NCBI GenBank assembly: GCA_030681195.1 | Contig: JAUXXJ010000008.1 | Coordinates: 186,001-250,000 of the forward strand | Reading direction: 5' to 3' | DNA length: 64,000 nt | Source: Rhodocyclaceae bacterium | Lineage (GTDB): Bacteria > Pseudomonadota > Gammaproteobacteria > Burkholderiales > Rhodocyclaceae | In this document: one piece after another, positions 5,056 through 49,860 of the stretch | How the letters are laid out: every line of letters starts with the position of its first letter | Numbering within the stretch: the stretch's first letter is position 1 | Made by a program: the position numbers and the translations under genes | Notes under the pieces: generated by a model | The model's input: the letters and a program-made list of their open reading frames with translations, nothing else | Database searches by the model: none | What the model was told of the DNA's origin: nothing

Positions 5056-6188
5056 CCTCGTTCAAGTTTGTCCTGCTCTGGTCCGATGCCCTGTTCTTCC
5101 TGCTGATTGCGGCGGTGATTGCCGGGGGTGTGTGGTCCCGCCGTCAGCCGCATTTGCGTGCCAACTGGCGAAAGGTTGGGCAAAACCGCGTGGCTATGGG
5201 CTCTGCGGCGGTGCTGGCGGTGTTTTTCGCCATCGCCTTCATCGATTCGCTGCACTATCGGCCGCAGCTGCCCAATGTCGATCAGGGGGAGGTGCGTTAC
5301 TCGACGGAGGTCTTGTCGGCGCTTGATGCGCTGCTGATGCCAATGCGTACGCAGACTGAGAAGACCTATTCCGCCCCGCTGGCAACGCACCTGTTTGCCA
5401 AGGAAACGCTGGACGATGCCGGCCGCGACTATCCGCCGCTGCGCTATCCCGGCACACACGTGTTCGGCACCGACAAGGTCGGACAGGATGTGCTCTACCT
5501 GACGCTGAAAAGCATTCGCACTGCCCTCCTGATCGGCACCCTGACCACGCTGATCATGCTGCCGGCGGCGATCGGGCTGGGCCTGCTGGCGGGGTATGTG
5601 GGGGGCTGGGTCGATGATGTGATCCAGTATCTCTACACCACCCTCAACTCGATCCCCGGCGTATTGCTGATTGCCGCGTCGGTGCTGATGATGCAGGTGG
5701 TGATCGACACCCATCCCGAGTGGTTCGCCACCAGCGCCGAACGGGCGGATGCGCGCTTGCTGGCGCTGTGCGCGATCCTCGGTATCACCAGTTGGACAGG
5801 GCTGTGCCGCCTGCTGCGCGGTGAGACGCTGAAGTTGCGCGAGCTGGAGTACGTGCAGGCGGCGCGGGCATTGGGCGTCTCCAGCGCCCGCATCCTCTGG
5901 CGCCATATCCTGCCGAACGTCATGCACATTGTGCTGATCGCGATGGTGATGGATTTTTCCGGGCTGGTGCTGGCCGAGGCGGTGCTTTCCTATGTGGGCA
6001 TCGGGGTTGATCCGAACACGATCAGCTTTGGCACCATGATCAACACGGCGCGCATGGAACTGGCGCGCGAGCCGATGGTGTGGTGGTCGCTGGCGGCGGC
6101 CTTCATCTTCATGTTCGTGCTGGTGCTGGCAGCCAATCTGTTTGCCGATGCGCTACGCGATGCGTTTGACCCGAGGGCATCGCGGTGA
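5052..6188 (+). CDS. Oligopeptide-type ABC transporter permease (OppC/DppC/YejE family)
   Basis: The 378-residue protein has an N-terminal membrane helix and a roughly 100-residue periplasmic segment. A core of five helices follows, with the EAA motif near residues 267-295 (YVQAARALGVSSARILWRHI). The conserved GTDKVGQDVL segment before the core is typical of OppC/DppC proteins. It pairs with the upstream OppB-like permease to form the membrane channel. It overlaps the ATPase gene by the GTGA junction at 6185-6188. The protein is longer than canonical OppC (about 300 residues) because of the periplasmic insert, which fits the YejE subgroup better. Substrate unknown. Confidence 0.85.
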   Translation: MTSFKFVLLWSDALFFLLIAAVIAGGVWSRRQPHLRANWRKVGQNRVAMGSAAVLAVFFAIAFIDSLHYRPQLPNVDQGEVRYSTEVLSALDALLMPMRTQTEKTYSAPLATHLFAKETLDDAGRDYPPLRYPGTHVFGTDKVGQDVLYLTLKSIRTALLIGTLTTLIMLPAAIGLGLLAGYVGGWVDDVIQYLYTTLNSIPGVLLIAASVLMMQVVIDTHPEWFATSAERADARLLALCAILGITSWTGLCRLLRGETLKLRELEYVQAARALGVSSARILWRHILPNVMHIVLIAMVMDFSGLVLAEAVLSYVGIGVDPNTISFGTMINTARMELAREPMVWWSLAAAFIFMFVLVLAANLFADALRDAFDPRASR

Positions 6189-8098
6189 GTCTCTTATCGG
6201 TGCGCGATCTGTCGGTGTCGATTGGCACTTTGTGTCCGGTCGACGGCGTGTCTTTCGAGATCGAGCGCGGCGAGACGCTGGCGCTGCTGGGCGAGTCGGG
6301 CTGTGGCAAGTCGATGACGGCGCTGGCGCTGATGCGCCTGCTGCCGCCCGGGGGGAGCATCGTGCAGGGCGCCATTCACTTCGCCGATGAGGATTTGTGC
6401 TGCCTGACCGAGGCGCAGATGCGCCATGTGCGCGGCGGCAAGCTGGGCATGATCTTTCAGGAGCCGGCGACCAGCCTCAATCCGGTGATGACGGTGGGCG
6501 AGCAGATTGCCGAAGCCTTGCGCTTCCATGCGGGGAATGAGACGCGTGTCATCGAACTGCTGGCGGCGGTGGGGATTCCCGATCCCGAGCGGCGCGCGCG
6601 TGAGTATCCCTTCCAGATGTCCGGCGGCATGAAGCAACGCGCGATGATCGCGATGGCGCTGGCGGGGGCGCCGGAACTGCTGATTGCGGATGAACCGACC
6701 ACGGCGCTGGATGTGACGATTCAGGCGCAGGTGCTCGACGTGCTCGATGGCCTGCGCCGCGCGCGGGGCATGGCGATCCTGCTGATCACGCATGACCTCG
6801 GCGTGGTGGCGCGCATGGCTGACCAGATCGGCCTAATGTATGCCGGACAACTGGTCGAGATGGCGCCCCGCGCGGCCTTCTTCGCCGCGCCGGGCCATCC
6901 TTATGCGCGACGTTTGTTCGAGGCGTTGCCGGAAATGGCCATGACAAATGAGGGTCAGCGGCGGCTGGCGACTATTCCCGGCAGCGTGCCGCCGCTGGGA
7001 ACAGTATTTACCGGCTGCCGTTTTGCCGACCGCTGCAGCGAGGTGCTGCCGGTGTGTCATCGCGAGCTACCGCCGTGGCGCGAGCATGGGCCCGCCCATC
7101 GGGTGCGTTGCCATCTTGAGGTGCGCGCCGAACAAAGTGTCCGAAAAGTCGGCGCTGGCGAGACGGCATCTGTTGATGTTTCTGCCCCGCCACAAGCCTT
7201 GCTGACGGTGCGCGAGCTGAAAGTTCATTTCCCGATTCGACGCGGCGTTCTGCAGCGCGCCGTCGGCTATGTGCGTGCCGTGGATGGCGTCGATTTGGCG
7301 CTGCCTGCCGGTCGCACGCTTGCGCTGGTGGGCGAGTCGGGGTGCGGCAAGACGACAGTGGGCAAGGCGATTCTTGGGCTGCAAGCGCCGACGGCGGGTG
7401 ATATCCATTGGCAGGCGGAAAAGCTCCAGGGGCTAGCGCCCGAGCGCATGCAGATGGTGTTCCAGGATCCCTTCGGATCGCTCAACCCGCGCATGCGCAT
7501 CTGCGAGATTGTGGCCGAAGGCCGCCCCGGCGCTGACGTGGCGCGCATCCTCGAACAGGTCAGCTTGTCCGCCAGCATGGCGGATCGCTATCCGCATGAG
7601 TTCTCCGGCGGGCAGCGCCAGCGCATCGCCATTGCGCGGGCGCTGGCAGTCGAACCGCAAGTGCTGATCTGCGACGAGCCGACCAGCGCGCTGGATGTTT
7701 CGGTGCAGGCGCAGATTCTCAACCTGCTGGCCGAGTTGCAGCAGACGCTGGGGCTGTCCTACCTGTTCATCACGCACAACATCGGTGTGGTGAATCATCT
7801 CGCCCATGAGGTCGCCGTGATGTATCTCGGCCGGATTGTCGAGCGGGGGACGGTCGATGAGGTACTGCGCGCGCCGCGCCATCCCTATACGCAAGCCTTG
7901 CTGGCGGCAGTGCCGCGCATCGACGGCCAGCGCATGGATGTCAAGGTGGCCGGTGATCCGCCATCGCCCTCGAATCCGCCGGCCGGCTGCCATTTCCATC
8001 CGCGCTGTCCGCGCGCCGAAGCGTGTTGTCGGGAGGCGTATCCCCCGGCGGTCAGCGTGAGCACGACCCAGACGGTGAACTGCTTCTTCGCAAACTGA
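6185..8098 (+). CDS. Fused double ATPase of an oligopeptide-type ABC transporter (OppD-OppF / YejF-like)
   Basis: The 637-residue protein carries two complete ABC ATPase domains. The first has Walker A GESGCGKS at 36-43, signature SGGMKQR near 145 and Walker [13 protein letters not shown]. The second has Walker A GESGCGKT near 382, signature SGGQRQR near 473 and [11 protein letters not shown]. Each domain ends with the cysteine-rich oligopeptide-transporter tail (GCRFADRC and [14 protein letters not shown]). It drives import through the two upstream permeases. The GTG start at 6185 overlaps the permease stop. The linker between the domains, around residue 320, contains one copy of the window's 25-bp dispersed motif, read as KVGAGETA. 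No binding protein follows; the next gene is convergent. Confidence 0.9.
7144..7168 (+). repeat. Dispersed 25-bp motif, copy 1 (inside ABC ATPase linker)
   Basis: This exact consensus copy (core GTCGGCGCTGGCGAGACGGC) lies between the two ATPase domains and is read as KVGAGETA. The linker tolerates variable sequence, so the copy is not expected to disturb catalysis. Confidence 0.85.
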
Positions 8099-11449: not shown

Positions 11450-12729
11450 GCGCAGCTGTCATCTTCCTGATGCTGGCCTTGCTGATGCTCACCGGCATGC
11501 CGGTGTCGATCTCGCTGGGCCTGACGGTACTGACCTTCCTGTTCGCCTTTACCGATGTGCCGCTCGAAGCGGTGGCGTTGAAGCTGTTTACCGGCATCGA
11601 GAAGTTTGAAATCATGGCGATCCCGTTCTTCATTCTTGCCGGCAACTTCCTCACCCATGGCGGCGTGGCGCGGCGCATGATCAATTTCGCTACCTCGATG
11701 GTCGGCCACTTCCGCGGTGGCCTGGGCATGAGTTCGGTGTTTGCCTGCGCCTTGTTTGCGGCGGTTTCGGGGTCCAGCCCGGCCACCGTGGTGGCGATCG
11801 GCTCGATCATGTTGCCGGCGATGGTCAGGGCGGGTTATCCGAAGAAATTCGGGGTCGGCGTCATCGCTTCCGGTGGTGGATTGGGCATCCTGATCCCGCC
11901 CTCGATCGTCATGGTGATGTATGCAGTATCGACCAACAGCTCGATCGGTGCGCTGTTCATCGCCGGCGTGATTCCTGGCCTGCTGTTGGCCTTCATGCTG
12001 GGTTTTACCACCTGGTGGGTGGCGCGCAAGGGCAATTACCCGCGCGAGCCGGAGCATTCGTGGGGTGAGCGCTTTGTCGCCTTCCGCAAGGCGATCTGGG
12101 GTTTGCTGCTGATTGTCGTGGTCATCGGCGGCATCTACAGCGGCTTGTTCACGCCGACCGAAGCGGCGGCGATGAGCGCGGTTTACGCCTTCATCATCGC
12201 TGTGTTCGTGTACAAGGACCTGAAAATGTCCGATGTGCCGAAGGTGCTGCTGAACTCGGCGAACATGAGCGCGATGCTGCTCTACATCATCACCAACGCG
12301 GTCCTGTTCTCGTTCATCCTCACCAACGAACAGATTCCGCAGGGCATCGCCGAATGGATTCAGAATTCGGGCATGGGCGTGATCGGCTTCCTGATCGCTG
12401 TCAACATTCTGTTGCTGATCATGGGCAGCTTCATGGAACCCTCGTCGATCATTCTGATCACGGCGCCGATCCTGTTCCCGATCGCCATGAAGCTGGGCAT
12501 CGATCCGATCCACTTCGGCATCATGATCACGGTGAACATGGAGATTGGCATGATTACGCCGCCGGTCGGCCTCAATCTCTACGTGGCGAGCGGCATCGCG
12601 AAGATGGGACTGACCGACTGCTCGAAGGCGGTGTGGCCCTGGTTGCTGACGATGCTGATCTTCCTGATGATCATCACCTACGTGCCGGTTGTTACGACCT
12701 GGCTGCCGACAACGCTGGGCATGATGTAG
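11446..12729 (+). CDS. dctM: TRAP transporter large permease subunit (DctM family)
   Basis: The 427-residue protein has about twelve membrane helices. Recognisable DctM features include LTGMPVSISLGL near the start, the AVSGSSPATVVAIGSIMLPAM region, GGGLGILIPPSIVMVMYAV, and the late TPPVGLNLYVASG segment. It forms the sodium-driven channel with DctQ and takes substrate from DctP. The length is normal for the family. A terminator-like hairpin lies just downstream, so the operon is dctP-dctQ-dctM only. A long open frame on the opposite strand here is a codon-bias shadow. Confidence 0.92.
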   Translation: MSAAVIFLMLALLMLTGMPVSISLGLTVLTFLFAFTDVPLEAVALKLFTGIEKFEIMAIPFFILAGNFLTHGGVARRMINFATSMVGHFRGGLGMSSVFACALFAAVSGSSPATVVAIGSIMLPAMVRAGYPKKFGVGVIASGGGLGILIPPSIVMVMYAVSTNSSIGALFIAGVIPGLLLAFMLGFTTWWVARKGNYPREPEHSWGERFVAFRKAIWGLLLIVVVIGGIYSGLFTPTEAAAMSAVYAFIIAVFVYKDLKMSDVPKVLLNSANMSAMLLYIITNAVLFSFILTNEQIPQGIAEWIQNSGMGVIGFLIAVNILLLIMGSFMEPSSIILITAPILFPIAMKLGIDPIHFGIMITVNMEIGMITPPVGLNLYVASGIAKMGLTDCSKAVWPWLLTMLIFLMIITYVPVVTTWLPTTLGMM

Positions 12730-43730: not shown

Positions 43731-45029
43731 ATGGGTGCCGCCAACGTAGATAAGTACAAGTCCAATGGGTCAACCGCAGGTGACCTTCTGGAGTGGGTGG
43801 ATGCGCGCTTCCCCCTGATGGCGTTGTGGAACGAACATCTGGCGAAGTATTACGCACCAAAGAACTTCAACTTCTGGTATTTCTTTGGTTCCCTGGCACT
43901 GCTGGTGCTGGTGATCCAGATCGTGACCGGCATCTTCTTGGTGATGCACTACAAGCCGGATGCCTCGTTGAATGCTTCTGGCGTGCCAGTGGCCTTTGCG
44001 AGCGTCGAGTACATCATGCGTGATGTGCCGTGGGGCTGGTTGATTCGCTACCTGCATTCGACCGGTGCGTCGGCCTTCTTCGTCGTCGTCTATCTGCATA
44101 TGTATCGCGGCCTGATCTATGGCTCGTACCGTAAGCCGCGTGAGTTGGTCTGGATCTTCGGCGTCATGATTTTCCTTGCGCTGATGGGGGAAGCCTTCAT
44201 GGGCTACCTGCTCCCGTGGGGCCAGATGTCCTACTGGGGCGCACAGGTGATTCTCAACCTGTTTTCGGCCATTCCCCTTGTCGGTAACGAGTTGACGCTG
44301 TGGATTCGGGGTGACTACGTGATCGGTGATGCGACCCTTAACCGGATGTTCTCGCTGCATGTCATTGCCGTGCCGCTGGTGTTGATTGGTCTCGTGGCTG
44401 CGCACATCATTGCACTACACGAAGTGGGTTCCAATAACCCCGATGGCGTCGAGATCAAGAAGAAGAAAGACGAGCATGGCATTCCGCTCGATGGTATCCC
44501 CTTCCACCCGTACTACACGGTGAAGGATATTGTCGGTGTGGTGGTTTTCCTCATGGCCTTCTCGGTAATTGTGTTCTTCATGCCTGAAGGCGGCGGGTAC
44601 TTCCTGGAGTACAACAACTTCTTCCCCGCCGATCCGCTGGTGACCCCCCCGCACATAGCACCGGTCTGGTATTTCACGCCTTACTACTCGATCCTGCGTG
44701 CCAATACGGTGAACTTCTTCTGGATCGATGCCAAGCTGTGGGGCGTTATTTTCATGGGCCTCGGCGTGATGATATTTTTCTTCCTGCCCTGGTTGGATCG
44801 TAGCCCGGTGAAGTCGATTCGCTATCGTGGCCCCTTGTTCAAGGGGGCGCTTGGCATCTTCCTCGTTAGCTTCTTCATCCTGGGTTATCTGGGCATGCTG
44901 GCACCAACCCCCGGACGCACGTTGGTGTCGCAGATTTGCACGATTCTCTACTTTGCTTTCTTCCTGTTGATGCCGATTTATACGGCGCTAGATAAGTGCA
45001 AGCCTGAACCAGAAAGGGTGACGGGATAA
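43731..45029 (+). CDS. petB: Ubiquinol-cytochrome c reductase cytochrome b subunit
   Basis: The 432-residue membrane protein has eight helices and two hemes. Heme-ligand histidines are in HSTGASAFFVVVYLHMYRG and in the second pair around LHVIAVPLVLIGLVAAHIIA. The Qo-site loop has the PEGGGYF and PADPLVTPPHIAPVWYF (PEWY-like PVWYF) segments. The central protein of the bc1 complex, it contains about 30 extra C-terminal residues typical of Betaproteobacteria. It ends overlapping petC. Confidence 0.97.
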   Translation: MGAANVDKYKSNGSTAGDLLEWVDARFPLMALWNEHLAKYYAPKNFNFWYFFGSLALLVLVIQIVTGIFLVMHYKPDASLNASGVPVAFASVEYIMRDVPWGWLIRYLHSTGASAFFVVVYLHMYRGLIYGSYRKPRELVWIFGVMIFLALMGEAFMGYLLPWGQMSYWGAQVILNLFSAIPLVGNELTLWIRGDYVIGDATLNRMFSLHVIAVPLVLIGLVAAHIIALHEVGSNNPDGVEIKKKKDEHGIPLDGIPFHPYYTVKDIVGVVVFLMAFSVIVFFMPEGGGYFLEYNNFFPADPLVTPPHIAPVWYFTPYYSILRANTVNFFWIDAKLWGVIFMGLGVMIFFFLPWLDRSPVKSIRYRGPLFKGALGIFLVSFFILGYLGMLAPTPGRTLVSQICTILYFAFFLLMPIYTALDKCKPEPERVTG

Positions 45030-45739
45030 TGAAAAAACTGCTGATTGCCCTGCTGTGGGTGCCGCTCATGGCTTTTGCTGCCGGTGTCGAACTCCATCCT
45101 GATAAGGCGCCAGATCGTTCCCGCGATAATGCTGCCTTGCAGAATGGTGCCAAGCTGTTCATCAACTACTGTTTGAACTGCCACTCGGCCTCGTATTTTC
45201 GCTACAACCGTTTGACGGACATCGGTCTGACCGAGGCGCAGATCAAGGATAACCTGCTGTTCACCGCAGACAAGATCGGCGAGACGATGACGATTGCCAT
45301 GCGTCGTGCCGAAGCCAAACAGTGGTTTGGCGCGGCCCCCCCCGACTTGACGGTGATAGCGCGCGCACGTTCAACTGTGTCCTATTCTGGTGCTGACTGG
45401 CTCTATACCTACATGCGCAGCTTCTACCGCGACGACTCCCGCCCGACCGGTTGGAATAACACGGTTTTCCCGAACGTTGGTATGCCGCACGTGCTTTGGG
45501 AGCTGCAGGGTGAGCAGGTCATGGGTGCCGATCACAAGCTGAGCCTTGCCAAGCCTGGTCTGGTCAAGCCGGAAGAGTTTGATGTGATGGTCGGCGATCT
45601 GGTGGGTTTTCTGACCCACATAGGCGAGCCGATGGCCAACTTCCGCAAGCAGTTGGGTGTGATCGTACTGATCTTCCTGGCTGTTCTGTTCGTCTTCTCG
45701 TATGCGCTCAAGCGTGAATACTGGAAAGACATTCACTGA
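45029..45739 (+). CDS. petC: Ubiquinol-cytochrome c reductase cytochrome c1 subunit
   Basis: The 236-residue subunit has a signal peptide, a heme c motif CLNCH (NYCLNCHSASYF) and a C-terminal membrane anchor (VIVLIFLAVLFVFSYAL). The methionine ligand is probably in the AGxx-like region around TMTIAMRR or later. It receives electrons from the Rieske subunit and reduces soluble cytochrome c. The ATG overlaps the petB stop. Confidence 0.95.
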   Translation: MKKLLIALLWVPLMAFAAGVELHPDKAPDRSRDNAALQNGAKLFINYCLNCHSASYFRYNRLTDIGLTEAQIKDNLLFTADKIGETMTIAMRRAEAKQWFGAAPPDLTVIARARSTVSYSGADWLYTYMRSFYRDDSRPTGWNNTVFPNVGMPHVLWELQGEQVMGADHKLSLAKPGLVKPEEFDVMVGDLVGFLTHIGEPMANFRKQLGVIVLIFLAVLFVFSYALKREYWKDIH

Positions 45740-45833
45740 TTACCGTGAGTAGACTCACATGGGACATCGAGACATGAATCCACCCGTCCGTCGCGTGGTG
45801 CGAGATTCCGACTATTCCTGGGGTACGAGTGCC

Positions 45834-46430
45834 ATGATGAACTTGTATTCGGGAACCACCTGTCCGTTCAGCCATCGCTGCCGCATCGTACTTTACGAGA
45901 AGCAGATGGACTTTCAGGTGATTGATGTCGATCTCTTCAACAAACCCGAAGACATCGCCGTCATCAACCCGTACAACCGTGTCCCTGTGCTGGTTGATCG
46001 TGATCTCGTCCTGTACGAATCGAACATCATCAACGAGTACATCGACGAGCGATTCCCGCATCCGCAGTTGATGCCGCCAGATCCGCAGACGCGTGCAAAG
46101 GCGCGTCAGCTTCTGCATACGATGGAACTGGAGCTTTTCAGCCATATCGATGCACTCGAGCGCAACCTTAAGTCTGCCGACAAGTCCCGGGCGCATATCC
46201 GGGATCGCCTGGCCGAACTGGTGCCGTTGTTTGCCAAGCAGAAATTCTTGCTGGGCGATGACTTCTCGATGCTTGATGTGGCGATTGCCCCGTTGCTCTG
46301 GCGTCTTGACCATTACGGTATCGAGTTGCCAAAGACGGCTGCGCCCGTCATGAAGTTTGCCGAGCGCATCTTTTCTCGCCAGGGTTTCATCGACGCACTG
46401 ACGCCGTCCGAAAAGGTGATGCGCCGCTGA
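45834..46430 (+). CDS. sspA: Stringent starvation protein A
   Basis: The 198-residue GST-fold protein starts MMNLYSGTTCPFSHRCRI and has the NPYNRVPVLVDRDLVLYES thioredoxin-like core. SspA binds RNA polymerase and affects stress and virulence genes; it lacks GST activity. The start at 45834 gives the usual length; the frame opens upstream at 45759 but no strong ribosome site supports it. It follows petC and precedes sspB, the standard order. Confidence 0.93.
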   Translation: MMNLYSGTTCPFSHRCRIVLYEKQMDFQVIDVDLFNKPEDIAVINPYNRVPVLVDRDLVLYESNIINEYIDERFPHPQLMPPDPQTRAKARQLLHTMELELFSHIDALERNLKSADKSRAHIRDRLAELVPLFAKQKFLLGDDFSMLDVAIAPLLWRLDHYGIELPKTAAPVMKFAERIFSRQGFIDALTPSEKVMRR

Positions 46431-46454
46431 TTTTCAGCAGCGCATCCGCTTTCC

Positions 46455-46889
46455 ATGACCTCCACGAAGCCGTATTTCATCCGGGCCATCCATGAGTGGT
46501 GCTCGGATGAAGGCTTTACCCCGTATCTCGCGGTGCAGGTATCCGCGCGTACGCGAGTGCCGCGCGAATTCGTCAGTGATGGCCAGATCGTCCTCAATGT
46601 CAGTCTTGATGCCACGCATCAGCTACAGATCGGCAATGAGGAGATCAGCTTTCAAACCCGTTTCAATGGTGCGTCATTTCCCGTGCTTGTGCCCGTGGTT
46701 GATGTCGTTGCGATCTATGCGCGTGAAAATGGCCAAGGCATGGCTTTTGAAGCGGGTGATGTGGGCGCGCTTGGTGACGAGGGAAAAGTCGGCGCTGGCG
46801 AGACGGCAGTTGCTGGCGATGCGAGCGATGTCAGCGAGCCTGTTGATTCAGCGACCCGCAAAAGCAGTCATCTGACGCGCATCAAGTAA
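46455..46889 (+). CDS. sspB: ClpXP adaptor SspB
   Basis: The 144-residue adaptor delivers ssrA-tagged proteins to ClpXP. The folded domain covers about residues 1-105 (KPYFIRAIHEWCSDEGFTP, then the FNGASFPVLVPVVDVVAIYA core). A flexible acidic tail follows and ends HLTRIK, similar to the ClpX-binding end of SspB. The tail near residue 110 holds a dispersed-motif copy, read as KVGAGETA, which should not disturb the domain. Confidence 0.9.
   Translation: MTSTKPYFIRAIHEWCSDEGFTPYLAVQVSARTRVPREFVSDGQIVLNVSLDATHQLQIGNEEISFQTRFNGASFPVLVPVVDVVAIYARENGQGMAFEAGDVGALGDEGKVGAGETAVAGDASDVSEPVDSATRKSSHLTRIK
46784..46808 (+). repeat. Dispersed 25-bp motif, copy 7 (inside sspB tail)
   Basis: An exact consensus copy in the disordered linker of SspB, read as KVGAGETA. 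Confidence 0.85.
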
Positions 46890-46914: not shown

Positions 46915-49212
46915 TTACTTCGACTCCATTACCCAAACGCCGTCCCATTCTGCACCGGGTGGGTTTGCGGCGAAGTGTTCGCAGCGTTCGATGTAGAGTT
47001 TCGCTCCCTTGTCCTTGGGATTTAGGCCCAAGACTTCATTGAATTCCGTCATGGCAGCTTTCCAGTCCTGCTTGCGGTATTTACTGATGCCCGTTTTGAA
47101 AAGTCGCAGTGCATCGGTCAGGTGCGGGTAACTGTCGTCGCTGTGGAAGTCGAGGATTTCGTAGATGGCGACCGGTTTTGTTTTTCCCTTGACGATCACG
47201 AGATCCAGTTCACGACTGAAATAAGTGCCCCGCAGCACCTTGTGGGTGAATTCGCTGATGAGAATGTGGGCGCCATACTGCTTGCAGGCAGACTCGAGGC
47301 GTGCGGCCAGATTCACGCCATCGCCGATGATGGTGTAGTCCATGCGCTTCTTGGACCCGATATTGCCGGACACGACGTTGTCGGTATTCAGGCCGATGCC
47401 GATATCGACGGCCATCTTGCCTTCATTGACGCGCACCCGGTTCCATGCGGCGAGTTCGCGCATCATCGCAATGGCCGTGCGCACTGCACGATCGGCATCG
47501 TCGTCGTGGCCAACCGGGATGCCGAAGGCCGCCATGATCGCGTCGCCAATAAACTTGTCGAGCATACCTTCTTCACGCTGGATGCAATCCACCATCAGCG
47601 TGAAGTATTCGTTCAGCAGGGCGACCGTACCCTGCGCACCGAGTTGCTCGGTGATCGTGGTGAAGCTGCGTATATCGGAGAACAGGATCGTGGCATTGAC
47701 GCTCTTGCCGCCGAGCGCTTCGGCACCCGATGCGAGCATTTGAGCCGCAATGCCCGGATCCATGTAGCGCGACATGGTGGTCTTCAGGCGTTTCTCGTTG
47801 GAGATGTTTTCGAGCAGCAGCATCAAGCCGATACGCTTACCTTCAGCCGACAGGAGGGGTTGTAGCGTCAGGTTGACTGACAGCCTGTCTTCACCCAGCA
47901 CAATTTCGGCATCCATCAGCAGTTCGGAACCCTGTGTTTCGGCGACACGCTTGAGCTTTTCGATAATCCATGCGTTGTTGCCGCTAAAGAATTCCGCAGC
48001 AGGCTTGTGCAGAATTTGCGAGGGATGAAGCTTGAGCAGGCGCAGGCCGGCGGCATTGCAGGTGGCGATGCGCTCGGCTTCGTCGAGAGTGATGACCCCG
48101 TTCGACATCGATTCGAGCATCGCTTCGTTGTAGTTCTTCATGGCCTGGACATCGGCAAACAGCTTGGCGTTTTCCAAGGCGATGGAGATTTGCGCCGTAA
48201 ATGCCCGCAAACGCGATTCATCTTCACTGGTGAAGGGGCCGCCGCGCCGGTTTAGTACCTGCGTGACACCGATCACCTTGCCGTGTTTGTTGACAATCGG
48301 CACGCACAGGATCGAGCGCGTGAAGAAGCCGGTCTTCTTGTCGAAAGCCGGATTGAAGCGCAGGTCGGCATAGGCGTAGGGAATGTTGATCGCCTTGCCT
48401 GAGGTGAATACCGCGCCGGCAATGCCGAGATGGTTGGGCAGGCGGATTTGGACCGACTCCAGCCCCTGGCCCACTTCCGACCACAACTCGTTGGTTTTCT
48501 CGTCGTTGAGGAAGAGCGTCGAACGTTCGGCATTGAGCAGGCGCGTCGCTTCGCCCATGACCTTCTGGAGCAGTGATCCAAGCTTGATATCCGCCGTGAC
48601 TTCGGAGACGACGTCGATGAATTCCATTTCCTGCCGGCGAATGGCCTGCATGCGCTCGATGAACTGTGCACTTTGCAGCGCCAGCGTGCCCTGGCTGGTC
48701 ATCGCTTCGAGCAGATGCAAGTCCTGTTTGGTGAACTTGCCGGTGCGCTTGTTGAGCGTCTGTGCGACGCCAATGATCTCGCCCTTAACGGTCTTGATTG
48801 GAACGCACAGGATGCTGCGCGTTGAGAATCCGGTTTGTTCGTCGATCGACCGATTGAAACGTCCATCGGCGTAGGCGTCATGAATGATCAGCGCTTCGCC
48901 GGCGGTGAAGACGTGACCGGCGACGCCGCTGGTGTTGAGGATGCGAATCTCGCGCTGGATATTGCCCTGGGCGACGCGTGAGTAGAGCTCGTTGGTGTCC
49001 GGGTCATTGAGAAACAGGGAGCCGCGTTCCGCATTGAGCTCCGTGGTCGTTATGTCGACCAGTGCGTTCAGAACCTCGTCGAGCGTGCCATAGCCGGCCA
49101 TGCGCCGCGTAACTTCGAGCAACAGTTCGGCGTGACGCAAGCGGCGCTTGGTGTCGACGCTTTGTTCGAGTACTTTTGCTTTGGCAGATGTGGGAGGAGG
49201 GGAGGCTTCCAT
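46915..49212 (-). CDS. GAF-GAF-PAS adenylate/guanylate cyclase
   Basis: The 765-residue protein has two similar GAF domains, at about 25-190 (GSLFLNDPDTNELYSRVAQG) and 200-370 (STLFLNDEKTNELWSEVGQG). A PAS domain follows at about 375-480, then a class III cyclase domain at about 500-690. Metal-binding Asp residues are in ILFSDIRSFT and FIGDAIMAAFG; YTIIGDGVNLAARLES is the second signature. The last 75 residues form a TPR-like helix pair. It probably makes cAMP in response to small ligands or redox cues. ATG 49212 is chosen; a TTG at 49221 overlaps the previous stop. Coexpressed with the coiled-coil gene. Confidence 0.92.
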   Translation of the reverse strand: MEASPPPTSAKAKVLEQSVDTKRRLRHAELLLEVTRRMAGYGTLDEVLNALVDITTTELNAERGSLFLNDPDTNELYSRVAQGNIQREIRILNTSGVAGHVFTAGEALIIHDAYADGRFNRSIDEQTGFSTRSILCVPIKTVKGEIIGVAQTLNKRTGKFTKQDLHLLEAMTSQGTLALQSAQFIERMQAIRRQEMEFIDVVSEVTADIKLGSLLQKVMGEATRLLNAERSTLFLNDEKTNELWSEVGQGLESVQIRLPNHLGIAGAVFTSGKAINIPYAYADLRFNPAFDKKTGFFTRSILCVPIVNKHGKVIGVTQVLNRRGGPFTSEDESRLRAFTAQISIALENAKLFADVQAMKNYNEAMLESMSNGVITLDEAERIATCNAAGLRLLKLHPSQILHKPAAEFFSGNNAWIIEKLKRVAETQGSELLMDAEIVLGEDRLSVNLTLQPLLSAEGKRIGLMLLLENISNEKRLKTTMSRYMDPGIAAQMLASGAEALGGKSVNATILFSDIRSFTTITEQLGAQGTVALLNEYFTLMVDCIQREEGMLDKFIGDAIMAAFGIPVGHDDDADRAVRTAIAMMRELAAWNRVRVNEGKMAVDIGIGLNTDNVVSGNIGSKKRMDYTIIGDGVNLAARLESACKQYGAHILISEFTHKVLRGTYFSRELDLVIVKGKTKPVAIYEILDFHSDDSYPHLTDALRLFKTGISKYRKQDWKAAMTEFNEVLGLNPKDKGAKLYIERCEHFAANPPGAEWDGVWVMESK

Positions 49213-49217
49213 GACAT

Positions 49218-49775
49218 TCAACCGTTCGCAGAGGGATGTTCGAGTTGTGTACGCAACGCCTGGATGGTGGCGTGCAATTGAGCTGTTTCGTCGCTGAACA
49301 GCGTATGTTCGCGGCGTACGGCATTGTCCTTGTCGATCTGCAGCAGTTCCAGTGTGTCCCGCAGCGAACTGACGGTTTCGCGCAGTTGCGCGATTTCGCC
49401 TTGCTGGGTAGACATCGCCGCTCTTACGGCATTGTCCTTTTCAGCGCGCAGATGTTCCAGCCCTTCCCGCAGTTCGCCTACCGTTGCCTTGAGCATCTGC
49501 ATTTCATTGTGCCCCACAGCCCGTTCCTGCTGTATCAGGCGATCACGTTCAATCCGTGCATGCTCCAGTTCGGCGCGCAGGGCACTCACGGTGGTTTTGA
49601 GTTGAGCAATTTCAGCTGCGCTGGCCTGGCCGGCCTGGCGTACCTCGTTTTGCCGGATCATTTCGGCGTGCTCCAACTCCGTACGCAGGGCGACAACGGT
49701 GCGCTTGAGGTCGCGCACCTCCGCCTGTGCCAATGCCAACGTTTCCTCTATGGTGAGTTCTTCTGTCGTTGTCAT
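49218..49775 (-). CDS. Coiled-coil protein with 36-residue repeats
   Basis: The 185-residue protein contains four full repeats of exactly 36 residues and a half repeat. Each begins E-x3-L-x2-T-V/I-x2-L-R-x2-L-E, for example EIAQLKTTVSALRAELEH and EIAQLRETVSSLRDTLEL. The pattern predicts a continuous coiled coil. The start at 49775 is 9 bases after the tRNA-Arg CCA end, so the two are likely cotranscribed and no Shine-Dalgarno site is seen. The stop overlaps the cyclase start region, suggesting that this protein scaffolds or tethers the cyclase. No family recognised. Confidence 0.8.
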   Translation of the reverse strand: MTTTEELTIEETLALAQAEVRDLKRTVVALRTELEHAEMIRQNEVRQAGQASAAEIAQLKTTVSALRAELEHARIERDRLIQQERAVGHNEMQMLKATVGELREGLEHLRAEKDNAVRAAMSTQQGEIAQLRETVSSLRDTLELLQIDKDNAVRREHTLFSDETAQLHATIQALRTQLEHPSANG

Positions 49776-49784
49776 GTACGATAG

Positions 49785-49860
49785 TGGCGCCCTCAGCACG
49801 AATCGAACGTGCGACCCCCTTCTTAGGAGGAAGGTGCTCTATCCACTGAGCTATGAGGGC
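49785..49860 (-). tRNA. tRNA-Arg (anticodon CCT)
   Basis: The 76-base cloverleaf has acceptor GCCCTCA pairing with TGAGGGC, D arm GCTCAGTGGATAGAGC, anticodon loop CTCCTAA between CCTTC and GAAGG, and T arm with GTTCGATTC. Discriminator G and CCA are encoded. The anticodon CCT decodes AGG. A coiled-coil gene begins 9 bases after the CCA. Confidence 0.96.

Follow-up and report, generated by a model that had tools for sequence, protein, structure and literature searches.

Does the gene directly upstream of a class III cyclase in a Rhodocyclaceae genome encode a dedicated partner of that enzyme? The question was raised by a window of 64,000 nucleotides, the whole stretch of DNA analyzed here (assembly GCA_030681195.1, contig JAUXXJ010000008.1, positions 186,001 to 250,000), which comes from a 3.66-Mb genome in 58 contigs. 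An initial annotation had described a protein made of exact 36-residue coiled-coil repeats, whose gene overlaps that of a GAF-GAF-PAS cyclase, and had suggested a dedicated scaffold. We refer to the repeat protein as the rod, and positions are those of the window unless another locus is named.

The minus-strand frame at 49218-49775, which starts at an ATG at 49773-49775, encodes a protein of 185 residues with no cysteine and a single proline close to the C terminus. A scan for an 18-residue core found core starts at residues 19, 55, 91, 127, and 163; the scan itself numbers residues from the open frame, which begins 21 residues before the ATG. The gene, delimited by its translation, codon-position differences, and homologs, and the units found by the core scan are as follows.

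49218 to 49775, minus strand: repeat (rod) gene, stop codon at 49218-49220, ATG at 49773-49775, 185 residues
49614 to 49721, minus strand: unit 1, residues 19-54 (core 19-36, linker 37-54)
49506 to 49613, minus strand: unit 2, residues 55-90
49398 to 49505, minus strand: unit 3, residues 91-126
49290 to 49397, minus strand: unit 4, residues 127-162
49236 to 49289, minus strand: final half unit, core only, residues 163-180

The scan recovered the four full 36-residue units and the half unit of 18 residues that had been described initially, and the units of the window show the fixed positions that had been proposed (E1, L5, T8, L12, R13, L16, and E17). The description of the repeats as exact held for their length and failed for their sequence, as the mean mutual identity of the four full units is 38% for protein and 47% for DNA. 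Residues 36 positions apart are identical in 53 of 149 pairs (mean of 12.5 and maximum of 26 in 5,000 shuffles), compared with 12 of 150 at lag 35 and 5 of 148 at lag 37. These shuffles, together with the spacing in the wider family described below, rule out chance periodicity. An exact DNA repeat is ruled out by the low identity of the units as DNA and by Tandem Repeats Finder, which did not report the rod array in the window. The sole tandem repeat that it reported there lies at 12270-12328, where a unit of roughly 30 bases occurs 2.1 times. The rod gene behaves as a translated gene, because its differences from the nearest relative (L017) number 10, 3, and 40 at the three codon positions. 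The unit is better seen as two halves, a conserved core of 18 residues and a linker kept at 18 residues, and the term exact sequence repeat fits it less well.

To see how far this plan extends, we compared 133 loci, which encode 128 distinct rod proteins. This set includes loci reached from the cyclase side, where the best 80 of 227 were kept; rods from the class sample described below are not counted in it, and its locus numbers count some places twice (e.g., L019/L168, L020/L174, and L093/L183). One locus without a cyclase (L022, in genome G012) was dropped before most counts. Its rod gene, at 303-879 on the minus strand of a contig end, has a broken frame with stops in matched stretches, which could be decay or an assembly error. 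A natural fusion protein (L162) was left out of the spectrum, core/linker identity, junction, tRNA, and tail-length tallies.

By the core scan, the 128 proteins hold 628 cores and 500 spacings between successive cores, of which 497 are 36 residues, two are 72, and one is 38. Both 72-residue spacings have a decayed core in between, and the spacing of 38 belongs to the fusion. Proteins with 3, 4, 5, 6, 7, 10, 11, and 12 cores number 17, 49, 26, 27, 2, 3, 3, and 1, respectively, and a FastTree tree of 125 cyclases requires at least 31 changes of core number, although part of these changes may stem from decayed units that the scan can miss. Four such cores, all with the arginine at position 13, were missed, two inside the 72-residue gaps and two at C termini; L200 has a further C-terminal tail that is not core-like. 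After the last core, the open frame runs on for no more than 12 residues in 122 of 127 proteins, so the general plan is core-(linker-core)n. When each locus was tested for lags separately, lag 72 outscored lag 36 at some loci, and L138 and L162 gave no peak at lag 36; for L138 a different open reading frame (ORF) had been tested, and its own three cores lie 36 residues apart in the core scan. At L094 and L118, two adjacent units are 80 to 81% identical as DNA. These are probably recent duplications of whole units, which would show how the core number may change.

Among the 497 full units, the core consensus is E1 (86%), L5 (86%), T8 (85%), L12 (88%), R13 (100%), L16 (87%), and E17 (86%). Position 13 is arginine in 627 of the 628 cores, the exception being a histidine in the fusion protein, and no other position is as fixed. 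All six arginine codons are used there, and lysine never occurs. The scan itself rewards arginine at position 13, but few cores can have been missed for this reason, because gaps of 72 residues are nearly absent. Between random pairs of units, identity is 0.485 to 0.513 for cores and 0.177 to 0.259 for linkers, and the length of the linker is almost constant although its sequence drifts. Strict spacing combined with free linker sequence argues that distance is what is selected, and the invariant Arg13 speaks for a single kind of contact made again in each unit, perhaps with a carboxylate or a phosphate. First, last, and interior cores are conserved to nearly the same degree (0.513, 0.499, and 0.485), so special conservation of an end core, as an end-on mode of binding would have it, is unsupported.

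We then considered what kind of structure such a unit could form. Hydrophobic residues occupy positions 2, 5, 9, 12, 16, 19, (23), 27, 30, and 34 of the unit, with position 23 mostly polar and positions 19, 30, and 34 mostly alanine; the charged positions of the unit include glutamate at 1 and 15 and lysine or arginine at 6, 13, and 20. Read from these hydrophobic columns, the unit is an array of 7+7+11+11 residues in ten helical turns. When hydrophobicity spectra were averaged over 127 proteins, the maximum fell at 3.60 residues per turn. In spectra of single proteins, the peak lies at 3.57 to 3.61 in 114, at 3.27 to 3.28 in 13, and at 3.5 in none. As a period of 3.60 equals the pitch of a plain alpha-helix, the coil should be almost straight, and by our arithmetic like nodes would recur every 36 residues, or 54 Å (about 5.4 nm), on about the same face. 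AlphaFold2 predicted a single helix for residues 3 to 179 of the rod in the window, with a mean pLDDT of 94.3, in a model of one chain from a 27-row alignment, for which any coiled coil would give one long helix. On this model we reject a helical-hairpin repeat of the TPR or PPR type, the unit of which also has about 36 residues but forms two antiparallel helices. The columns, the period, and the model all agree with the regular, nonheptad coil that had been proposed from the length of the unit.

The oligomeric state can be judged from the a and d positions of the core: two a positions (2 and 9) carry Ile/Val, the third (16) carries Leu, and both d positions (5 and 12) carry Leu. Ile/Val at a together with Leu at d is a known signature of the parallel dimer, and the charged positions given above point the same way. 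The rule is met only in part, because the third a position is Leu rather than Ile/Val, and we consider a parallel dimer the most likely form of the rod. The coiled-coil trimer motif, R-h-x-x-h-E, places arginine just before a core residue and five residues before glutamate. This motif does not fit the unit, which reads L12-R13-x-x-L16-E17, with the arginine after a core residue and four before the glutamate. A very regular, nearly straight coiled coil that varies by whole steps of 36 residues may also be of use in coiled-coil design.

The neighboring gene encodes a multidomain cyclase. Its features, numbered from an upstream TTG codon, are listed below with the matches that define them.

46915 to 49212, minus strand: cyclase gene, ATG at 49212, 765 residues; a TTG at 49221 adds 3 residues (768); Pfam
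48673 to 49086, minus strand: GAF-A, residues 46-183 (Pfam GAF_2)
48175 to 48579, minus strand: GAF-B, residues 215-349 (Pfam GAF; aligns with the CyaB2 tandem GAF structure 1ykd)
47788 to 48126, minus strand: PAS, residues 366-478 (Pfam PAS 366-471, PAS_4 369-478)
47173 to 47697, minus strand: class III adenylate/guanylate cyclase domain, residues 509-683 (Pfam Guanylate_cyc; CyaB structure 3r5g)
47014 to 47103, minus strand: weak TPR-like stretch in the C-terminal tail, residues 707-736 (Pfam TPR_6, E value of 0.23, under its cutoff)

Six residues, D516, D560, K556, T630, N637, and R641, are invariant across 21 aligned cyclases, and we take them to be the class III catalytic residues (two metal-binding Asp, the adenine-recognizing Lys and Thr, and the Asn and Arg). 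Among solved structures, its closest relatives are the tandem GAF domains of CyaB2 (1ykd, E value of 2.4e-43) and the catalytic domain 3r5g (E value of 1.8e-32), presumably that of Pseudomonas aeruginosa CyaB, which aligns over residues 509 to 695. The available text of PMC4411481 gives Arg291, Thr293, Ile308, Asp356, and Asn359 as the cAMP contacts of CyaB2 GAF-B; read from the alignment, three of these five are identical here (R233, T235, and D294), Ile308 is conservatively replaced by V250, and Asn359 is changed to T297. Because the catalytic residues are invariant and three of the five contacts given there are identical, the protein is likely an adenylate cyclase able to sense a cyclic nucleotide. 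GAF-B is the best conserved of the sensory domains, with 72 columns conserved at 95% or more, followed by GAF-A with 41 and PAS with 17. The genome contains nine matches over cutoff to class III cyclases and 22 to cyclic nucleotide-binding domains, so cAMP signaling is probably rich in this host. In a full-length model, which is poor in the catalytic domain (mean pLDDT of 63.9), helices of the tail span residues 701 to 716, 720 to 733, and 738 to 752.

Compared with only three unpaired relatives, the cyclases that have a rod gene beside them share 33 special residues, 17 in the catalytic domain and 9 in GAF-B, and no complementary rod-docking site was found among these clade-specific residues. 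Phe300 of GAF-B is fixed in the paired cyclases and is replaced by Arg, His, and Arg in the three unpaired ones, so paired cyclases may have a ligand pocket unlike that of their relatives.

If the rod is a dedicated partner, it should be inherited with this cyclase. The rod protein was found in 9 of 61 near-relative genomes (E value of ≤0.01), including 5 of 19 from the genus of the window. Samples of the order, the phylum, and the class contained it in 25 of 399 (≤1e-10), 24 of 398 (≤1e-10), and 7 of 274 genomes (≤1e-8), respectively. The family is thus widespread yet patchy in these Pseudomonadota samples; named strains that carry the pair belong to Sulfurisoma, Duganella, and Massilia. The unit is dispensable, because it is missing from most sampled genomes and from 14 of the 19 of the window's own genus.

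Where the rod occurs, the cyclase almost always follows. Among 55 loci found through the rod, 54 have the cyclase directly downstream on the same strand and the remaining one lies at a contig end, which bears out the proposed association and speaks against a rod that is widespread without a cyclase. Conversely, searching with the cyclase gave 227 relatives, of which the best 80 were kept. A rod ORF is present upstream in 77 of these 80 loci, and in the other three the cyclase starts at base 116, 66, or 1 of its contig; because of the cut at 80, this tally covers close relatives, at 71% identity or more. In the near-relative set of 61, a cyclase of at least 64% identity occurs in 8 genomes, each of which has the rod, and a ninth genome has a rod at a contig end. 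In the phylum sample, for which up to two candidates per genome were scored, the cyclase was found at an E value of ≤1e-180 in 25 of 398 genomes, all 25 of which have a rod protein: 23 are in the phylum rod list, one (G560/L163) has a weaker rod (E value of 2.8e-11), and one (G465/L162) has the fusion. The only genome of that rod list without a cyclase over the limit (G656) has one truncated by a contig end.

The class sample, scored for up to three cyclase candidates per genome, indicates where the association ends. Its seven rod-bearing genomes coincide exactly with the genomes whose best cyclase match reaches at least 57% identity, and the two genes are side by side in all seven. Five further matches, at 42 to 49% identity, have no adjacent rod in the genome search; three of the genomes concerned lack any rod, and the fourth has one beside its other cyclase. 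Around three cyclases from the near-relative search, at 46 to 48% identity, inspection of the surroundings found no rod, which brings the cyclase matches without a rod at 42 to 49% identity to eight. One genome (G756) has the pair with a cyclase at 55% identity. Absence at 42 to 49% and presence from 55% point to a border somewhere between 49% and 55% identity, and the pair looks like a property of one cyclase clade. Two MAG records named Klebsiella pneumoniae (L198) and Bordetella parapertussis (L243), with cyclases of 77% and 72% identity, are probably mislabeled or mixed bins; in the cyclase tree, both fall in a clade of 36 rows, most of them Rhodocyclales or betaproteobacterial.

The reading that we favor, to which we give roughly even odds (about 0.5), is that the rod is a dedicated, parallel-dimeric partner that binds cyclase dimers and gathers or positions them in a two-gene signaling unit. 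Alternatively, the rod might mainly assemble with itself into filaments or sheets in a 36-residue register, with the cyclase as cargo or reporter. The strict period, free linker sequence, and variable length are what lateral registry would select, and SF-assemblin, which may assemble in this way with motifs of 29 residues, forms 2-nm protofilaments according to the available text of PMC8435291. If the rod were a cytoskeletal protein of general use, it would be expected in places that lack the cyclase too, yet at none of the 55 loci is this clearly so, and we regard self-assembly as the main role of the rod as improbable.

Joint action of the two proteins can be judged from the fusion. At L162, in draft genome G465, a single plus-strand frame of 903 residues (5225-7933) encodes three core-like units, then a Pro-rich stretch, and then GAF-GAF-PAS-cyclase. 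The third core is degraded, with the histidine mentioned above and a start 38 residues past that of the second core, and the frame could hold an assembly error. This arrangement supports the idea that the two proteins act together, with the rod placed at the cyclase N terminus. As evidence for an organizer, a single fusion among 128 distinct proteins, with its third unit degraded, is thin.

The same N-terminal placement would suit a rod that acts as an allosteric regulator or sensor, stacking on the N-terminal helix of a GAF-A dimer and relaying a signal, conformational or mechanical, through its own stiff helix. Long interdomain helices are the usual signal path in such enzymes, and the cyclase model has two of them (residues 165 to 206 and 332 to 373); the rod, for its part, is predicted to be a continuous helix, and close gene order and co-inheritance would fit a nonscaffolding regulator too. 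Such a lever would not need 3 to 12 like nodes that each carry an invariant arginine, and it should not tolerate the length changes counted on the cyclase tree. Nor are the end cores conserved much beyond interior ones. We consider a lever possible if unlikely; it ranks first among the alternatives, ahead of the self-assembling filament.

Finally, the rod might have no physical link to the cyclase and merely be coexpressed with it, for example, to set its translation or stability. The gene junctions could be taken in this sense. Among 127 pairs, the cyclase has an ATG at −4 in 51, a GTG or TTG at −4 in 8, and an ATG between −30 and +20 in 54. In the window, the overlap noted initially (4 bases) arises only from the TTG start. 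The ATG at 49212, in our view the likelier start, lies five bases past the rod stop, so an overlap of the two genes is improbable here. Against mere coexpression, the remaining 14 pairs have no close start and still keep the pair (at L224, the cyclase frame opens 309 bases downstream of the rod), conservation at the protein level is extreme, as seen at Arg13, and one genome carries both proteins in one frame. We think this explanation quite improbable and place it last.

No third gene was found to travel with the pair: the largest neighbor cluster, among the 30 largest listed, covers 20 of 128 loci, in a clustering that used greedy ORF picking and includes some wrong-frame ORFs. On this basis we reject a larger operon. 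A tRNA-Arg gene (CCT anticodon; 49785-49860, minus strand) ends 9 bases upstream of the rod ATG, and the rod gene may therefore be read from the tRNA transcript in this lineage. This tRNA lies within 700 bases upstream of the rod in 16 of 117 loci (counting loci that have at least 600 bases ahead of the first core), the named ones being bins called Rhodocyclales, Rhodocyclaceae, Sulfuritalea, Nitricoxidireducens (L096, the same as L188), and beta proteobacterium. It looks local to one lineage and is ruled out as part of the unit. On the other side, genes at 43731-46889 that we take from their sequences to encode cytochrome b and cytochrome c1, followed by sspA-like and sspB-like genes, converge on the cyclase, an arrangement common to a minority of loci. 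The pair does not appear to belong to a mobile element, as no plasmid record matched the cyclase at an E value of ≤1e-100, and the eight phage records that did match show 27 to 32% identity over the catalytic domain in the five listed. A cyclase catalytic domain, 27% identical over residues 476 to 768, is annotated in the Methylophilales phages MZ577095 to MZ577098.

The dedicated-partner reading leads to the following proposal. The upstream gene would produce a long, nearly straight coiled-coil rod that presents 18-residue nodes every 36 residues on about the same face, and the downstream gene a soluble adenylate cyclase of the CyaB1/CyaB2 type. Class III enzymes of this type work as dimers. 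We propose that the rod, probably a parallel dimer that would be nearly straight in the real molecule as well, binds the cyclase, with the Arg13 of each node forming part of a contact either with the enzyme or with a neighboring rod. The rod would thereby cluster cyclase dimers or position them at one place in the cell, where the cAMP that one enzyme produces could reach neighboring enzymes and act on their GAF domains in a local feedback. A more specific version, which we hold to be doubtful, is a cAMP signaling array on a molecular ruler, with a docking node bearing the same arginine at every 5.4-nm step and adjacent cAMP-responsive cyclase dimers that coactivate each other through local cAMP. 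Rod length, from 3 to 12 nodes, would then set the size of the array and hence the sharpness of the response. With one arginine per unit and countable units, whether array size sets the response is directly testable.

How does this pair compare with known systems? In animal cells, AKAPs are well-known dedicated scaffolds for cyclic nucleotide signaling. We know of none for bacterial adenylate cyclases, and the rod-cyclase pair is a small, genetically clean candidate for such a role. In the Pycsar antiphage system, the cyclase PycC adjoins an effector that senses a cyclic nucleotide. The catalytic domain studied here resembles PycC profiles (E value of 1.3e-28), as class III cyclases may, but the pair does not fit the Pycsar plan, because no third gene beside it is conserved. 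For the Anabaena cyclases CyaB1 and CyaB2, we know of no coiled-coil partner gene. Their domain order, tandem GAF, PAS, and class III cyclase, is the order that Pfam gives here (that of CyaB2 being taken from the available text of PMC4411481). CyaB, represented by 3r5g, has a catalytic domain like that of the window cyclase. P. aeruginosa CyaB is membrane bound and has a MASE2 domain, in place of which the window cyclase has GAF and PAS domains.

The rod itself is not covered along most of its length by any curated family in Pfam, in NCBIfam (matches far below cutoffs), or in PADLOC (no match). Among the 25 of 37 Pfam families listed, only DUF6779 exceeded its cutoff, at 28.6 versus 28.1 bits over 34 residues, and no solved chain matched at an E value of ≤0.01. 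A search of the open-licence literature found, among the matches listed, neither such a pair nor a bacterial 36-residue coiled-coil repeat, which is weak evidence of absence. Heptad coiled coils such as the myosin rod, tropomyosin, and SMC proteins resemble the rod in being continuous amphipathic helices, and the weak Pfam and NCBIfam matches of the rod are to assorted coiled coils. Their period is 3.5, whereas that of the rod is 3.60, although the core alone holds two heptads. Coiled coils without marked winding are already known, according to the available text of PMC9369452. The nearest structural analog known to us is SF-assemblin, a striated rootlet protein of algae that, according to the available text of PMC8435291, is a coiled-coil rod that forms 2-nm protofilaments and fibers and whose 29-residue motifs each consist of four heptads and a skip residue. 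The likeness, a rod of short repeats made of heptads and one further residue, is structural and implies no sequence relationship. SF-assemblin is eukaryotic, has a nonhelical head, and has no cyclase, and the spacing of 36 residues in the rod family sets it apart from a 29-residue repeat. What emerges from these comparisons, alongside a mechanism that is proposed only, is an enzyme of known type joined to a new and constant partner family.
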